Assembly (NCBI GenBank): GCA_022843625.1
Contig: JALHNH010000026.1
Location: forward strand, 1-64,000
Reading direction: 5' to 3'
DNA from: Bryobacter sp.
Lineage (GTDB): Bacteria > Acidobacteriota > Terriglobia > Bryobacterales > Bryobacteraceae
DNA: 64,000 nt
Below, piece after piece: positions 1 through 45,622 of the stretch (its first letter is position 1; each line of letters begins with the position of its first letter). The position numbers and the translations under genes were made by a program. The notes under the pieces were generated by a model, which was not told where the DNA came from, did not search any database, and worked only from the letters and a program-made list of their open reading frames with translations.

Positions 1-617
<617 letters not shown>

Positions 618-1178
618 TTACTTGCTCAGTACCCTTTCTAGTTCTTGCTCTTCTTCTTCTTCGGCAGCGCCCATGGGGACGGGCGAGGCCAGGCGTAGTT
701 TCTTCGGTTCGAGTGTTACCGCTACCAGACCGCTACGGGTGATTTCAATTTCGCCGTAGCTACGCATCAAATCAATAAATTCGTCGAGTTTTTCAGGGTC
801 GCCGGTGCATTCGATGGCAAAGCCTTCGACGCTGGAATCGACGACGCGGGCCTGGAAAATCTCGGCTTCTTTCAGGATAGCGGTGCGATTGGACATCTCT
901 GCGCGGACGCGGAGGAGGACCATTTCGCGGGCTACGCTGCGTTCTTCGGTGAGGTCTTGAGCCTGGAGGACGTTGACGAGCTTGTTGAGCTGCTTTACGA
1001 CCTGGGCGCGGACCTTATGCTCTACGTCGACGACGATGGTCATGCGTGAGAGGGTGTCGTCCATGGTGCGGGCGACGGTAAGACTTTCGACGTTGTAATT
1101 GCGGGCGGCGAGGACGCCGACGACGCGCATGAGTGCGCCGGGTTTGTTTTCGAGGAGGATCGTTAGGGTTTGGAGCAT
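618..1178 (-). CDS. ilvN: Acetolactate synthase, small regulatory subunit
   Basis: Regulatory subunit of acetolactate synthase; it activates the large subunit and mediates valine feedback. The protein opens with an ACT domain (MLQTLTILLENKPGAL, then NYNVESLTV), followed by the IlvN C-terminal domain. A longer frame exists with a start at 1214, but its first 12 residues (MPARYRTARYTT) are unlike the family and overlap the ilvB stop, so I choose the ATG at 1178, giving 186 aa. It sits 25 bases after ilvB and directly abuts ilvC. The acidic C-terminus is unremarkable. Confidence 0.95.
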   Translation of the reverse strand: MLQTLTILLENKPGALMRVVGVLAARNYNVESLTVARTMDDTLSRMTIVVDVEHKVRAQVVKQLNKLVNVLQAQDLTEERSVAREMVLLRVRAEMSNRTAILKEAEIFQARVVDSSVEGFAIECTGDPEKLDEFIDLMRSYGEIEITRSGLVAVTLEPKKLRLASPVPMGAAEEEEEQELERVLSK

Positions 1179-1183
1179 TGTTG

Positions 1184-1210
1184 TGTACCTAGCTGTTCTG
1201 TACCTAGCTG
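1184..1210. repeat. 15-bp tandem duplication over the ilvB stop codon
   Basis: The 12-mer TGTACCTAGCTG occurs at 1184-1195 and again at 1199-1210, a 15-base period. Each copy carries an in-frame TAG for ilvB (minus strand), so ilvB has its stop at 1204-1206 and an identical back-up stop 15 bases later. It looks like a replication-slippage duplication in the ilvB-ilvN spacer. Confidence 0.85.
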
Positions 1211-2964
1211 GCAACCTCTACGGGCTGTGGTTGGCCGAGGACCATTTCGTTGATCGCGCCGCCTGCCGGAACCATCGGGTAAACGTTTTCGAAGGGGGTA
1301 ACCATTACGTTGAGCAGGTAAGGCCCGGGGGTGTTGACGGCTTCTTCGAGAGCGGGGCGGAGTTCTTCGGGCTTGGTGATGGTTTTGCCTTTGAAGCCGT
1401 AAGCGCCGGCGAGTTGCGCAGGCTCTGGGAAGCTGTCGAGGGTGACCTGGCTCAAGCGGTTGTTGTAGAAGAGCTCCTGCCACTGGCGGACCATGCCGAG
1501 GTGGCCGTTGTTCATGCAGATGATCTTGATGGGGAGCTTATGGTTGGCGATGGTGGCGAATTCCGGGATCGACATCTGGAAGCCGCCGTCGCCGGCGATG
1601 GAGAAGACAAGCTTTTCAGGGCAGGCCATCTGAGCGCCGATGGCGGAGGGAAGGCCGAAGCCCATGGTGCCGAGGCCGCCGGAGTTGATCCAGAGGCGGG
1701 GGTGATCGTAGCGGATGAGCTGGGCGGCCCACATCTGGTGCTGGCCGACGTCGGTAGTGACGATGGCTTCGCCGTTGGAGATACGGTTGATCTCGGCCAT
1801 GAGGTGTTGGGGCTTGATTTCGTCGATGGAGACTTCGAGCTTGAAGGGGTGCTCTTCCATCCAGCCGCGAATGGTGTTCCACCAGTCGGCGCGCTGAGCG
1901 GACTTTTGAGCGCGCATTTCGGGTTCGAGTTCGCGCATGACCTTGTTGAGCTTGGTGAGGACCTTTTTGGCATCGCCGACGATGGGGAGTTCTGCGTTGC
2001 GGATCTTGGAGATCTCGCTGGGGTCGATGTCGACGTGGATGACCTTGGCGTGGGGGGCGAAGGCAGCGAGGCGGCCGGTGACGCGATCGTCGAAGCGAAC
2101 GCCGAGGGCGATGATCAGGTCGGTATTGTACATGCCCATGTTGGCCGCGTAGGATCCGTGCATGCCGGGCATCGAGATGAAGTTGCGGTGGTTGCCGGGC
2201 AGGGCGCCGAGGCCCATGAGGGTGTTGACGCAGGGGAGGTCAGCGAGTTCGACGAATTCCTTGAGTTCATTGTGGGCGTGGGAGTGGATGATGCCACCGC
2301 CAGCGTAGACGAAGGGACGTTCGGCTTCCCAGATCATCTGGGCGGCGCGGCGGATCTGGCCGGTGTGGCCTTCGGTGTAGAGCTTATAGCCGGGGAGATG
2401 GATGGAATCGACAGGCTGGTAGTGGGAGAAGGCCTGGAAGATGTCCTTAGGGATGTCTACGAGGACGGGGCCGGGGCGTCCGGTTGTGGCGATGTAGAAG
2501 GCTTCGTGGAGGATTCGCGGGAGTTCCGAGACGTGCTTGACCATGAAGTTGTGCTTGGTGGCTGGACGGGTGATGCCGAAGGTGTCGGCTTCCTGGAAGG
2601 CGTCAGTACCGATGAGCTTGGAGGTGACCTGACCGGTGATGGCGATGACGGGGATGGAATCCATCATGGCGTCAACGAGGCCGGTGACGAGGTTCATGGC
2701 TCCGGGGCCAGAGGTGGCGCAGCATACACCGACCTTACCCGTAGCGCGAGAGTAGCCTTGGGCGGCGAAAGCGGCATTCTGTTCGTGCCGGACGAGGACG
2801 TGTTTGACGGGGTGGTCATACATGGCGTCGTAGAAGGGGAGAGTGACGCCGCCGGGATAACCAAAGATCACTTCTACGCCTTCGCGGGAGAGGCATTCAA
2901 GCAGGATGTGCGAGCCGCTCATGAGAGCGCCTGGTGTTGCGGGAGGTTGGATGGTGGATGCCAT
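1204..2964 (-). CDS. ilvB: Acetolactate synthase, large catalytic subunit
   Basis: Thiamine-diphosphate enzyme that condenses pyruvate with pyruvate or 2-ketobutyrate, the first common step of branched-chain amino-acid synthesis. At 586 aa it has family length. The catalytic glutamate lies in RHEQNAAFAAQGYSRATG, near residue 60. The FAD-binding middle domain follows, and the TPP/Mg motif GDGGFQMSIPEFATI ... MNNGHLGMVRQ lies in the C-terminal third. The ATG at 2964 has AGGAG about 14 bases upstream, rather far. A second possible start is the Met of MSGSHILLECLSREG (2922), closer to where many homologues begin. It is the first structural gene of the operon, downstream of an attenuator-type leader. 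Confidence 0.96.
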   Translation of the reverse strand: MASTIQPPATPGALMSGSHILLECLSREGVEVIFGYPGGVTLPFYDAMYDHPVKHVLVRHEQNAAFAAQGYSRATGKVGVCCATSGPGAMNLVTGLVDAMMDSIPVIAITGQVTSKLIGTDAFQEADTFGITRPATKHNFMVKHVSELPRILHEAFYIATTGRPGPVLVDIPKDIFQAFSHYQPVDSIHLPGYKLYTEGHTGQIRRAAQMIWEAERPFVYAGGGIIHSHAHNELKEFVELADLPCVNTLMGLGALPGNHRNFISMPGMHGSYAANMGMYNTDLIIALGVRFDDRVTGRLAAFAPHAKVIHVDIDPSEISKIRNAELPIVGDAKKVLTKLNKVMRELEPEMRAQKSAQRADWWNTIRGWMEEHPFKLEVSIDEIKPQHLMAEINRISNGEAIVTTDVGQHQMWAAQLIRYDHPRLWINSGGLGTMGFGLPSAIGAQMACPEKLVFSIAGDGGFQMSIPEFATIANHKLPIKIICMNNGHLGMVRQWQELFYNNRLSQVTLDSFPEPAQLAGAYGFKGKTITKPEELRPALEEAVNTPGPYLLNVMVTPFENVYPMVPAGGAINEMVLGQPQPVEVAS

Positions 2965-3010
2965 TTAAGTAAGTTGAACTCCTAAGCTGCGGTTACTAAT
3001 TTTACGTTGA

Positions 3011-3057
3011 CAAAGATAAAGGCCACGGGCTGGATTTTTTGGTTCCCGCCAGTGGCC
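3011..3057 (-). terminator. Intrinsic terminator/attenuator ahead of ilvB
   Basis: Read on the minus strand, GGCCAC (3057-3052) pairs with GTGGCC (3026-3021). An inner GGG/CCC extends the stem with a bulge, and the 3' arm is followed at once by the T-rich run TTTATCTTTG. The stem lies between the leader-peptide stop (3083) and the ilvB start (2964). The 5' arm also contains GGCGGG, which can instead pair with CCCGCC in the last codons of the leader peptide. Confidence 0.7.
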
Positions 3058-3093
3058 TAGAAGTTAAGATTCCTGAGGCCGCTCAGGCGGGAG
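3043..3093 (-). promoter_or_regulatory. ilv antiterminator pairing and stop-codon hairpin
   Basis: On the minus strand TCCCGCC (3092-3086, last two sense codons of the leader peptide plus one base) is complementary over 7 bases to GGCGGGA (3050-3044), which lies in the 5' arm of the terminator, so the two stems exclude one another. A second compact hairpin, CCTGAG-CGGC-CTCAGG (3072-3087), contains the leader-peptide stop codon. A ribosome stalled on the Val/Ile/Leu codons would leave TCCCGCC free for antitermination; a ribosome at the stop would cover it and permit termination. Confidence 0.6.
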
Positions 3094-3214
3094 TTGAGGG
3101 TACTTGTACGACCCCGACTCCGACGAGAAGAATGCCAATAATGATGACAACGGCCCGATAGACAGGAATGCTGGCAGGCCGTTGGTAGCGGAGATTGCGC
3201 AGCAGATTCGTCAT
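3083..3214 (-). CDS. ilv operon leader peptide (43 aa, Val/Ile/Leu-rich)
   Basis: Short peptide starting MTNLLRNLRY at the ATG at 3214 and ending QVPSTPA. Residues 22-38 are VVIIIGILLVGVGVVQV; 13 of residues 21-38 are Val, Ile or Leu. This is the composition of ilv leader peptides such as E. coli IlvL and IvbL, whose translation senses charged branched-chain tRNAs. It lies directly upstream of ilvB with a terminator between. The frame stays open upstream to a GTG at 3331 (82 aa) that overlaps the previous gene's stop, but the ATG at 3214 sits just behind a plausible promoter. An alternative is a small single-span membrane protein; the position and the alternative stems favour a leader. Confidence 0.75.
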   Translation of the reverse strand: MTNLLRNLRYQRPASIPVYRAVVIIIGILLVGVGVVQVPSTPA

Positions 3215-3221
3215 ACTTTGT

Positions 3222-3250
3222 AGGTTAATGCAAAAGCCTCGCAAATGCAA
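3222..3250 (-). promoter_or_regulatory. Candidate promoter of the ilv leader
   Basis: Minus strand: TTGCAT (3250-3245), a 17-base spacer, then TAACCT (3227-3222). The -10 match is modest (TA...T). Seven bases separate it from the A of the leader-peptide ATG at 3214, so transcription would start at or next to the start codon and the leader mRNA would be leaderless. Confidence 0.4.
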
Positions 3251-3330: not shown

Positions 3331-3954
3331 CTAGAATTCGATCGAGGCCAGGATCTCTGAGGGTTTTTTATCGAAGGCTTTGCATATGGCGAGAAAACTC
3401 TCAAGCGAAGGCAGGTGGGCGCCGCGTTCGATCGAGCTGATCTGGCTGACGCTGAGCTTTGTGGCCGCCGCTACATCTTTCAAACTCCAATCCTTTTCTA
3501 CCCGCAGGAGTTTAATTTTGTGCCCAAGACGCTCACGGAGCCGGTCTTGCGCTGCACGGCCGAGACCGAATGACTCTATGGCATTGGCTAGCGTGGTTCT
3601 CAACTGGACGAGACTAAACGGTTTCGTGAGGTAGTCGAAGGCTTTACGCTTCAGTGCAGCACGCATGTCGTCGAGGGACGGGTATCCGGTAACGACGATG
3701 ACGCAGAGAGTGGGCCAACGGGTGAGAAGTTGATCGAGAACCTGCTCTCCCTGAAAGTCGCCCATTTTCATATCGAGCAAAACGATATCGGGGAGGCGTT
3801 GTTCAGCGGCGAGAAAGAGATCTTCGGGATGAGAGAAGCCGTGGACCGAAAATTGAGCATCCTCCACCAGTACGTCTTCCATATAATTGCGGAAGTCGTT
3901 GTCGTCGTCGAGAACGGCGATATCGACAAGCGCCGGTGACGGCTGAATTTCCAT
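3331..3954 (-). CDS. Response regulator with Xre-type HTH output domain
   Basis: A 207-aa protein with an N-terminal receiver domain (acidic pocket DDD at 16-18, phospho-acceptor D61 in IVLLDMKMGD, T89 and K111 in FDYLTKPF). A C-terminal Cro/CI-type HTH (about 144-203: LRVEKDWSLKDVAAATKLS then SQISSIERG) follows. This receiver-Xre order is uncommon, since response regulators usually carry winged-helix or LuxR outputs. I start at the ATG at 3954 because the longer frame adds 59 residues that run antisense into the sulfatase gene. No histidine kinase is nearby. It is divergent from the sulfatase with only 23 bases between start codons, so the two share a control region. Its target is unknown. 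Confidence 0.88.
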   Translation of the reverse strand: MEIQPSPALVDIAVLDDDNDFRNYMEDVLVEDAQFSVHGFSHPEDLFLAAEQRLPDIVLLDMKMGDFQGEQVLDQLLTRWPTLCVIVVTGYPSLDDMRAALKRKAFDYLTKPFSLVQLRTTLANAIESFGLGRAAQDRLRERLGHKIKLLRVEKDWSLKDVAAATKLSVSQISSIERGAHLPSLESFLAICKAFDKKPSEILASIEF

Positions 3955-3977
3955 AACACTACTGTAAAACCAAAGCG

Positions 3978-5366
3978 ATGAGAAACCAAACACGACGAAA
4001 TGTTCTTGCGGGACTGGCTGGCGCATTACTAAGAGCAGAAACGAAACAACCCAACATTGTTTTAGTGCTTTTCGACGATCTGGGATGGCGGGACTTTGGT
4101 TGTTTTGGAAACACCAAGCCAGTAACGCCAAACATTGATGCGCTCGCCGCAGAGGGGGTGAAGTTTACTCAGGCCTATGCGGCGTGCCCGGTTTGCAGCC
4201 CTTCCCGGGCGGCAGTGTTGACTGGAAAGTATCCACCGAGGACGGGCGTAACCGACTGGATTGCAGGCAGAGCCCAATGGCCGACGGCAAAACTGGTGAC
4301 ACCGAGGACGGGTACGTATCTTCCGCTTGAAGAAGTAACGATTGCCGAAACATTGAAAAAAGCTGGATACCGGACGGGGTCGGTTGGAAAGTGGCATCTC
4401 GGGGGAAGCGATGGACATATGCCCACCGATCAGGGCTTTGATCACAACACCGGGGGAAATGAGCGCGGAGCCAACGCCTATTTCGGGCCCTTCAACCTGC
4501 CAGGCCTTGAAGGGCGGAATGCGCAGCAATATTTGACTACCGAGCTTGGGATAGCCGCGAGAAAGTTTGCCGCTGCCGACCGCAAGCCGTTCTTTTTGTA
4601 TTGGCCCAATTATGCCGTCCATTTGCCATTGCAGGCTCCAGGATTTTCCTCCAAGGAAGGAACCTACCATGAGATGCTTCGGATCGCCGACGAGCAAATT
4701 GGCCATATGCGCGATCAACTGAAGGCGGCAGGCGAATACGAAAACACGATCTGGATCATTACCTCAGACAATGGGGGGCTGCTCTACGAAGGCAAGAGCC
4801 GCGAGGCGGTCACAAACAACCAGCCGTTGCGGGCGGGTAAGGGACACCTTTATGAGGGTGGGATTCGAGTGCCGCTGATTGTGAAGGCACCCGGGAAATC
4901 TAAAGCAGGGCTGGAGGTGAGCCAGCGAGTCTCCGGAATCGATTTATACCCAACAGTGCTCGACCTTCTTGGCATCGCCAAACCGCAAGGGATCGACGGA
5001 GTGTCACTGGCTGGACTTCTCGAAGGCAAGAAGAAGAGCCTGAAGCGGGATGCGCTCTATTGGCACTATCCGCATTACTCCAACCAGGGGGGAGTTCCGG
5101 GTGGAGTTGTGATTGAACGGAACTGGAAACTGATTGAGTTCTATGAAACGGGAAGGTTGGAGTTGTTTGACCTGAGCAAGGATGCTGGAGAAAAAAGGAA
5201 TCTAAGCGTGGTCGAAAAGGTACGAGCTTTGAAGATGCACGGGATGCTCCAGAGATGGAGGCAACGAGTCAGTGCCGTCATGCCAGGTAGCAATCCAAAC
5301 TTCGATCCGGCCAAGGAGGACCAAGGGCTCTTTGGGAAGGAGGAAGCGACAGTACCAGAGGCCTAG
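3978..5366 (+). CDS. Secreted type I sulfatase (arylsulfatase family)
   Basis: Hydrolyses sulfate esters, probably of polysaccharides, outside the cytoplasm. The 462-aa protein begins with a Tat-like leader (RRNVLAGLAGALL, residues 6-18). The metal-binding start NIVLVLFDDLGWRDFG follows at 26-41, and the sulfatase signature C73-S-P-S-R77 lies in CSPSRAAVLTGKYPPRTG; C73 needs conversion to formylglycine. The segments GKWHLGG and ITSDNGG are further family motifs. No formylglycine-generating enzyme is seen here. It shares a 23-base divergent spacer with the receiver-Xre regulator, which is a candidate controller. Its TAG stop overlaps the stop of the convergent Flp pilin gene in one CTAG. Confidence 0.93.
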   Translation: MRNQTRRNVLAGLAGALLRAETKQPNIVLVLFDDLGWRDFGCFGNTKPVTPNIDALAAEGVKFTQAYAACPVCSPSRAAVLTGKYPPRTGVTDWIAGRAQWPTAKLVTPRTGTYLPLEEVTIAETLKKAGYRTGSVGKWHLGGSDGHMPTDQGFDHNTGGNERGANAYFGPFNLPGLEGRNAQQYLTTELGIAARKFAAADRKPFFLYWPNYAVHLPLQAPGFSSKEGTYHEMLRIADEQIGHMRDQLKAAGEYENTIWIITSDNGGLLYEGKSREAVTNNQPLRAGKGHLYEGGIRVPLIVKAPGKSKAGLEVSQRVSGIDLYPTVLDLLGIAKPQGIDGVSLAGLLEGKKKSLKRDALYWHYPHYSNQGGVPGGVVIERNWKLIEFYETGRLELFDLSKDAGEKRNLSVVEKVRALKMHGMLQRWRQRVSAVMPGSNPNFDPAKEDQGLFGKEEATVPEA

Positions 5367-45404: not shown

Positions 45405-45437
45405 TGTGAGGGGTTGTATTAACTTATAGTTATGCTA

Positions 45438-45530
45438 GACTCCGGGTGATCCGCGGCACACGAGCTAAACCACTACCGTTGCTTCCTTCCGGACCTGGCG
45501 GGGTTTGCGGCCGATCATTGCACGGAGCCC
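45438..45530 (-). ncRNA. ffs: Signal recognition particle RNA, small (4.5S) form
   Basis: The minus strand carries the invariant domain IV loop CAGGTCCGGAAGGAAGCAAC (45497-45478), which binds Ffh. The flanks fold into one long hairpin: the 5' end GGCTCCG-TG pairs with the 3' end CAC-CCGGAGTC, with a small bulge. The total of about 93 bases fits the short bacterial SRP RNA without an Alu domain. It ends 33 bases before the dnaX start and runs in the same direction, a common arrangement. The exact ends are estimated from the pairing. Confidence 0.95.
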
Positions 45531-45622
45531 AAAGCCTAGCAACTCTCTAGTTTAGCACCCGCTTTTTGCCATAGACTTTGACTCGAAAGAATTTATTGAA
45601 GCAACGACGCTTCACCGGACCC

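Follow-up and report, generated by a model that had tools for sequence, protein, structure and literature searches.

We describe here a leader upstream of ilvBNC in Bryobacter sp. that is very probably a ribosome-mediated transcription attenuator, sensing charged Val, Ile (and Leu) tRNA and controlling the operon behind it. It lies on the minus strand of the window, by which we mean the whole 64,000-nt stretch of contig JALHNH010000026.1 that was analysed. Downstream of it is the cognate operon for valine, isoleucine and leucine biosynthesis, consisting of ilvB (1204..2964, minus strand), which encodes the 586-aa large subunit of acetolactate synthase with three TPP_enzyme Pfam domains, ilvN (618..1178, minus strand, putative start) for the small subunit with ALS_ss_C and ACT domains, and ilvC (1..611, minus strand), a ketol-acid reductoisomerase gene truncated by the contig end and recognised by eye from its N-terminal IlvC translation. 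A first-pass annotation had proposed such an attenuator from the letters of the DNA, and all of the coordinates that it gave proved correct to the base on the minus strand.

The leader peptide ORF encodes 43 aa (MTNLLRNLRYQRPASIPVYRAVVIIIGILLVGVGVVQVPSTPA; 3083..3214, minus strand), from an ATG at 3214 to a TGA at 3085-3083, and as originally noted lies just before ilvB and is rich in Val, Ile and Leu, with 13 of these in 18 residues. The control codons form a run from V22 to V38 (3101..3151, minus strand; AVVIIIGILLVGVGVVQV), which is kept in the family. The 600 nt upstream of ilvB were compared in genomes from the same genus, family and order, each ORF being scored by its densest Val/Ile/Leu stretch (best 14-residue segment, threshold 9 or more). 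ORFs with a score of at least 9 were found in 79/130 ilvB upstream regions as against 14/2597 dinucleotide-shuffled ones, which is more than expected by chance. Within the window's family, 108 of the 112 ilvB upstream regions carry the leader at the same place, as judged from the scores and, where these were low, by inspection, and the position of its start codon is kept within the genus (L002-L007). What stays constant among the family leaders is their Val/Ile/Leu richness, while the residues themselves, the N-terminus and the length (about 18-60 aa) vary. The peptide ends in (G)PA in the window's family and in SPG in a sister family; these endings are kept because the RNA pairing described below demands their letters, they alter along with that pairing, and they are gone in other lineages. 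Codon usage in the leaders is also unusual, GUA making up 54% of the Val codons among the last 20 leader codons and 7% of those in the ilvB genes of these genomes; when the GUA found almost invariably five codons before the stop is left out, the leader figure is still 43%. AUU accounts for 70% of leader Ile codons compared with 22% in ilvB.

Between the leader ORF and ilvB lies an intrinsic terminator hairpin (3021..3057, minus strand; -21.2 kcal/mol), followed by the U-rich tail TTTATCTTTG (3011..3020, minus strand), for which most relatives have TTTTTT. Both elements had been claimed before and were verified in the sequence, and the hairpin co-varies in relatives. The helices were tested as stated on a MAFFT alignment of 49 leaders with 500 shuffles; for the terminator, 97.3% of cells were paired and 39 cells showed double-sided changes spread over six pairs, a result equalled in 0/500 shuffles, although the aligned sequences are related and such shuffle counts, here and below, are not to be read as probabilities. 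When the partner strand was slid out of register, pairing fell to 14-58%. In the window's genus the U-tail is weaker than elsewhere in the family. The 112 hairpins of the window's family have a median of -27.4 kcal/mol and are, in nearly all members, stable and directly followed by T-rich DNA. A generic pattern scan detected neither the promoter nor the terminator in the window, its consensus being too strict; the terminator was missed because the pattern needs a 3-8 nt loop and at least 5 T per 8 bases.

A second helix, the antiterminator P1, shares the inner part of the terminator's 5' arm: TCCCGCC in the last leader codons just before the TGA (3086..3092, minus strand) pairs with GGCGGGA (3044..3050, minus strand). 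This complementarity, already pointed out in the first-pass annotation, was confirmed in the sequence and co-varies in relatives: 93.9% of cells in the 49-leader alignment were paired and 12 were changed on both sides, with 0/500 shuffles equalling this, and sliding the partner strand lowered pairing to 45-61%. The antiterminator is longer than originally described, since in the fold of 3093-3043 an inner helix of GGCCU (3076..3080, minus strand) with AGGCC (3058-3054) stacks inside P1; on its own this hairpin folds at -27.3 kcal/mol. Many relatives have a GGCC shortly 3' of the stop codon that could likewise pair with a GGCC of the terminator arm and lengthen the antiterminator, its register shifting among them. 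In relatives outside the alignment P1 takes many forms, complementary throughout, including CCTCGCC:GGCGAGG, CCCCGCT:AGCGGGG, CCCCGTC:GACGGGG, TCGCCTG:CAGGCGA and GCCCCGGC:GCCGGGGC. Some of these paired differences separate sisters in the IlvB tree (L045 from L053/L056, and L031 from L035), and paired changes therefore arose several times. Moreover, the position common to both helices co-varies with both of its partners (alignment positions 42-85-107), the triple being C-G-C in 26 sequences and U-A-U in 6, which is what mutually exclusive helices should show.

The other hairpins of the region fared less well. The earlier claim of a complete classical enteric layout stood as far as the ORF, the terminator, the exclusive antiterminator and the operon were concerned, while the protector hairpin is weakly supported and the stop-codon hairpin is not conserved. 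The latter (CCTGAG-CGGC-CTCAGG, 3072..3087, minus strand; -8.4 kcal/mol) does exist in the window as reported, but in L002, L003 and L006, near relatives from the same genus, its pairing is disrupted. We rejected it as a component of the device; it is probably incidental. The candidate 1:2 protector hairpin (3090..3121, minus strand) pairs GGAGU (3121-3117) with ACUCC (3094-3090) around an inner GGGG/CCCU and is the minimum free energy structure. Compared with synonymous codon draws, 114 leaders fold somewhat better (mean z -0.93, 81% below zero), and a fixed-register 1:2 helix, GGGGUC:GGCCCC, was paired in 68% with a co-variation score that did not exceed the shuffles, so that sequestration of the antiterminator strand by such a hairpin is only suggestive. 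A conserved hairpin in the 5' portion of the leaders was likewise considered and rejected (mean z -0.8), the structures varying among members.

Comparison of relatives further revealed a promoter, overlooked in the first-pass annotation together with the likely leaderless start that it implies. In the window it consists of a -35 box TTGCAT (3245..3250, minus strand) and a -10 box TAACCT (3222..3227, minus strand; family consensus TAnnCT) with a 17-nt spacer. TTGCAT, or a near variant, together with TAnnnT, usually TAnnCT, was present upstream of 99/115 leaders, with a spacer of 17 nt in 89 and of 18 nt in 10 of the 99. The ATG of the window's leader lies 7 nt after the -10 box, at the predicted transcription start, and in 45 of the 99 cases an in-frame start codon follows this box at a distance of 6-7 nt (28/44 in the respective frame at 6 nt and 17/41 at 7 nt, the figures for the preceding in-frame codons being 0-2). 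In Streptomyces lividans the distance from the -10 box to the transcription start averages 6.3 nt (PMC8079986). As the start codon sits at the expected transcription start, many of these leaders, the window's included, are probably translated from leaderless mRNA, a prediction from promoter spacing; the remaining leaders are predicted to have a short 5' UTR of about 3-13 nt.

The run of Val/Ile/Leu codons and the complementarity of terminator and antiterminator are both kept, and co-vary, across about 100 relatives; the refuting condition set in the first-pass annotation, loss of both in related genomes, was thus looked for and not observed. Four members of the window's family (L037, L058, L157 and L172) retain the promoter, whereas leader and terminator are gone; these are natural attenuator deletions and the device is therefore dispensable. 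In genus g71 of the sister family f3 (L142-L147, L149, L150 and L154), the leader and a P1 of the form GCCCCGG:CCGGGGC are kept and most members have no U-run terminator; control there may be Rho-dependent or translational. In other classes of Acidobacteriota, nine ilvB loci have a Val/Ile/Leu-rich leader before a terminator, with unrelated sequences, and at these loci the leader end has its complement in the terminator 5' arm (shuffle fractions 0 to 0.075, individually modest). Examples of such pairs of leader end and terminator arm are GGAUAAUG:CAUUAUCC in L257, CGGGGGUUC:GAACCCCCG in L265, UGAUGGCCU:AGGCCAUCA in L278 and GGAUGAUG:CAUCAUCC in L279. At many further ilvB loci of the phylum sample, no leader of this kind was seen.

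A covariance model built from the alignment found a single strong site in the window's genome, at 69.3 bits. Its weaker matches in other classes (L280-L287) do not lie upstream of ilvB and were taken as ordinary terminators. A complete attenuator was also found in a genome from another family of the class (L288, in G274), the ilvB of which shows about 70% identity and falls inside the tree of the window's family; this copy is ascribed to horizontal transfer or to bin contamination. In the genome of the window, leuA and hisG have no leader peptide; upstream of leuA (L289) a LysR-like gene is apparently divergent, as judged by eye. Within the window, the gene upstream of the leader (3331-4131, minus strand) encodes a response-regulator receiver domain fused to a Cro/C1-type HTH, and a bacterial small SRP RNA (RF00169) lies at 45437-45534 on the minus strand. 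The Balneolales loci L080, L086 and L106 have very Val/Ile/Leu-rich ORFs before ilvB, ahead of inverted repeats (GCCAGAGGT...ACCTCTGGC), and are a candidate for another ilv attenuator.

Other explanations of these features can be envisaged. As the run AVVIIIGILLVGVGVV has the hydrophobicity required of a membrane helix, the ORF could encode a functional small membrane protein with the run as its transmembrane segment, the terminator simply ending the ORF's own transcript. The family, however, preserves Val/Ile/Leu richness alone, and the peptide's C-terminus is set by the RNA pairing, varies with it and is lost in other lineages. The GUA/AUU bias, moreover, is atypical for protein genes of these genomes, and the position of the ORF before ilvB is fixed, all of which makes a small membrane protein very unlikely. 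A leader peptide that acts by translation attenuation or through Rho-dependent termination in place of the intrinsic terminator has in its favour the genus of the sister family mentioned above, where leader and P1 persist in members mostly lacking a U-run terminator. As an account of the window's family, where nearly all members have the stable, co-varying hairpin followed by T-rich DNA, we nevertheless regard it as very improbable.

Control by a ligand-binding riboswitch or a T-box, sensing ppGpp or tRNA, also deserves mention, as ppGpp riboswitches precede ilvB in some bacteria (PMC10272879). Conservation in the present leader is, however, limited to the end of the ORF, P1 and the terminator, with no aptamer-like core, and a search of Rfam 15, with ilvB-OMG, ilvH, T-box and ppGpp riboswitch families included, covered the window and nine relatives and gave no match of the leader that reached the gathering score; with E up to 5, the sole match was a snoRNA far below the cut-off. 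We consider a riboswitch or T-box at this locus extremely unlikely.

The presumed mechanism of ribosome-mediated attenuation can be read from the geometry of the leader. CCCGCC abuts the UGA and the Val/Ile/Leu run ends 9 nt upstream of it, most of the run lying further away, so that a ribosome on the stop codon would mask the antiterminator strand and one stalled in the run would not. We infer that the leader is translated and that it works as follows. Transcription would begin from the conserved promoter, on the leader start codon or immediately beside it, with a ribosome close behind RNA polymerase. When Val-, Ile- and Leu-tRNAs are charged, the ribosome would reach the UGA and cover CCCGCC, the 5' strand of the antiterminator, leaving the terminator 5' arm free for its 3' arm, and transcription would end before ilvB. 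Under shortage of a branched-chain amino acid, the ribosome would stall no further than codon 36, within the GUA/AUU-rich run; with an A-site codon up to about V36, the P1 strand would be bare and could capture GGCGGGA before the terminator 3' arm is made. The inner GGCCU:AGGCC helix may help this capture, after which the terminator could not form and ilvBNC would be transcribed. A static fold of the full-length RNA favours the terminator even under a stalled-ribosome mask, and antitermination must therefore be kinetic, as is assumed for classical attenuators; folding of this static kind does not probe a kinetic switch. More tentatively, and with less confidence than doubt, we suggest that the leader is read from leaderless mRNA, with the ribosome starting right at the 5' end, and that its control run, composed of the rare codons GUA and AUU, responds chiefly to the charging of tRNA-Val(UAC) and tRNA-Ile. 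On this reading it would belong to an ancient, Acidobacteriota-wide ilv attenuator in which the last codons and the stop codon of the peptide form the antiterminator strand.

Enterics are known to control ilv operons by ribosome-mediated attenuation, and in the trp, his and ilvGMEDA attenuators of E. coli the position of the ribosome on a run of cognate codons decides whether antiterminator or terminator forms. The present leader shares with these the cognate-codon run and, presumably, the use of ribosome position as a switch; its antiterminator strand, however, lies inside the ORF, whereas theirs follows it, and its 1:2 protector hairpin is a candidate only.

Beyond enterics, ribosome-mediated ilv attenuation is known in Corynebacterium (PMC10272879, PMC11857589), in Streptomyces (PMC8079986) and, according to PMC4117421, in Caulobacter crescentus, the ilvBN attenuator of which is credited there to Tarleton 1994. 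Caulobacter ilvBN is preceded by a leader with Ile and Val codons and an intrinsic terminator and shows stall-dependent read-through (PMC4117421), a layout like the one proposed here; it belongs to a different phylum. The ilvBNC attenuator of Corynebacterium (ilvB-II motif) likewise precedes the same operon, with a BCAA-rich uORF, a terminator opposed to an antiterminator and one copy per genome, and the leader mRNA of C. glutamicum has been discussed as leaderless (PMC10272879, PMC11857589). Its leader, however, is 15-17 aa long with P1/P2 hairpins, whereas here leaders of about 18-60 aa have the antiterminator strand in their last codons before the stop. In Streptomyces lividans, an actinobacterium, the ilvL, leuL and trpL leader peptides are leaderless with a -10 box TAnnnT like the one found here, their transcription starts having been mapped by RNA-seq (PMC8079986), whereas the start in our case is predicted from spacing and the -35 box is TTGCAT. 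The ilvB-OMG and Leptospira ilvB motifs (PMC10272879) are also structured ilvB leaders with BCAA-rich uORFs; the present leader, in contrast, matches no Rfam 15 family.

In Acidobacteria, nearly all predicted attenuators have been noted to lack a function, and attenuation in this phylum is almost unannotated (PMC2965389). An ilv attenuator from Acidobacteriota was not found in the literature searched, from which subscription papers were mostly absent, so that priority is not proven; within that coverage, the result agrees with the first-pass annotation, which knew of no described case in this group. Extension of the textbook ilv attenuator to Acidobacteriota, a phylum for which no described case was found, appears well supported by the comparative evidence. 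It provides a concrete and testable attenuator that a large soil lineage has retained, its helices co-varying as strongly as those of established attenuators, and about 100 natural variants, natural deletions included, in which the co-evolution of terminator and antiterminator can be studied. Leaderless attenuator peptides are documented in Actinobacteria (PMC8079986), with a mycobacterial cysteine case cited in PMC13236596, and the leaders described here suggest that leaderless translation extends beyond that phylum. An attenuator of this kind would, in turn, imply tight coupling of transcription and translation in Acidobacteriota.
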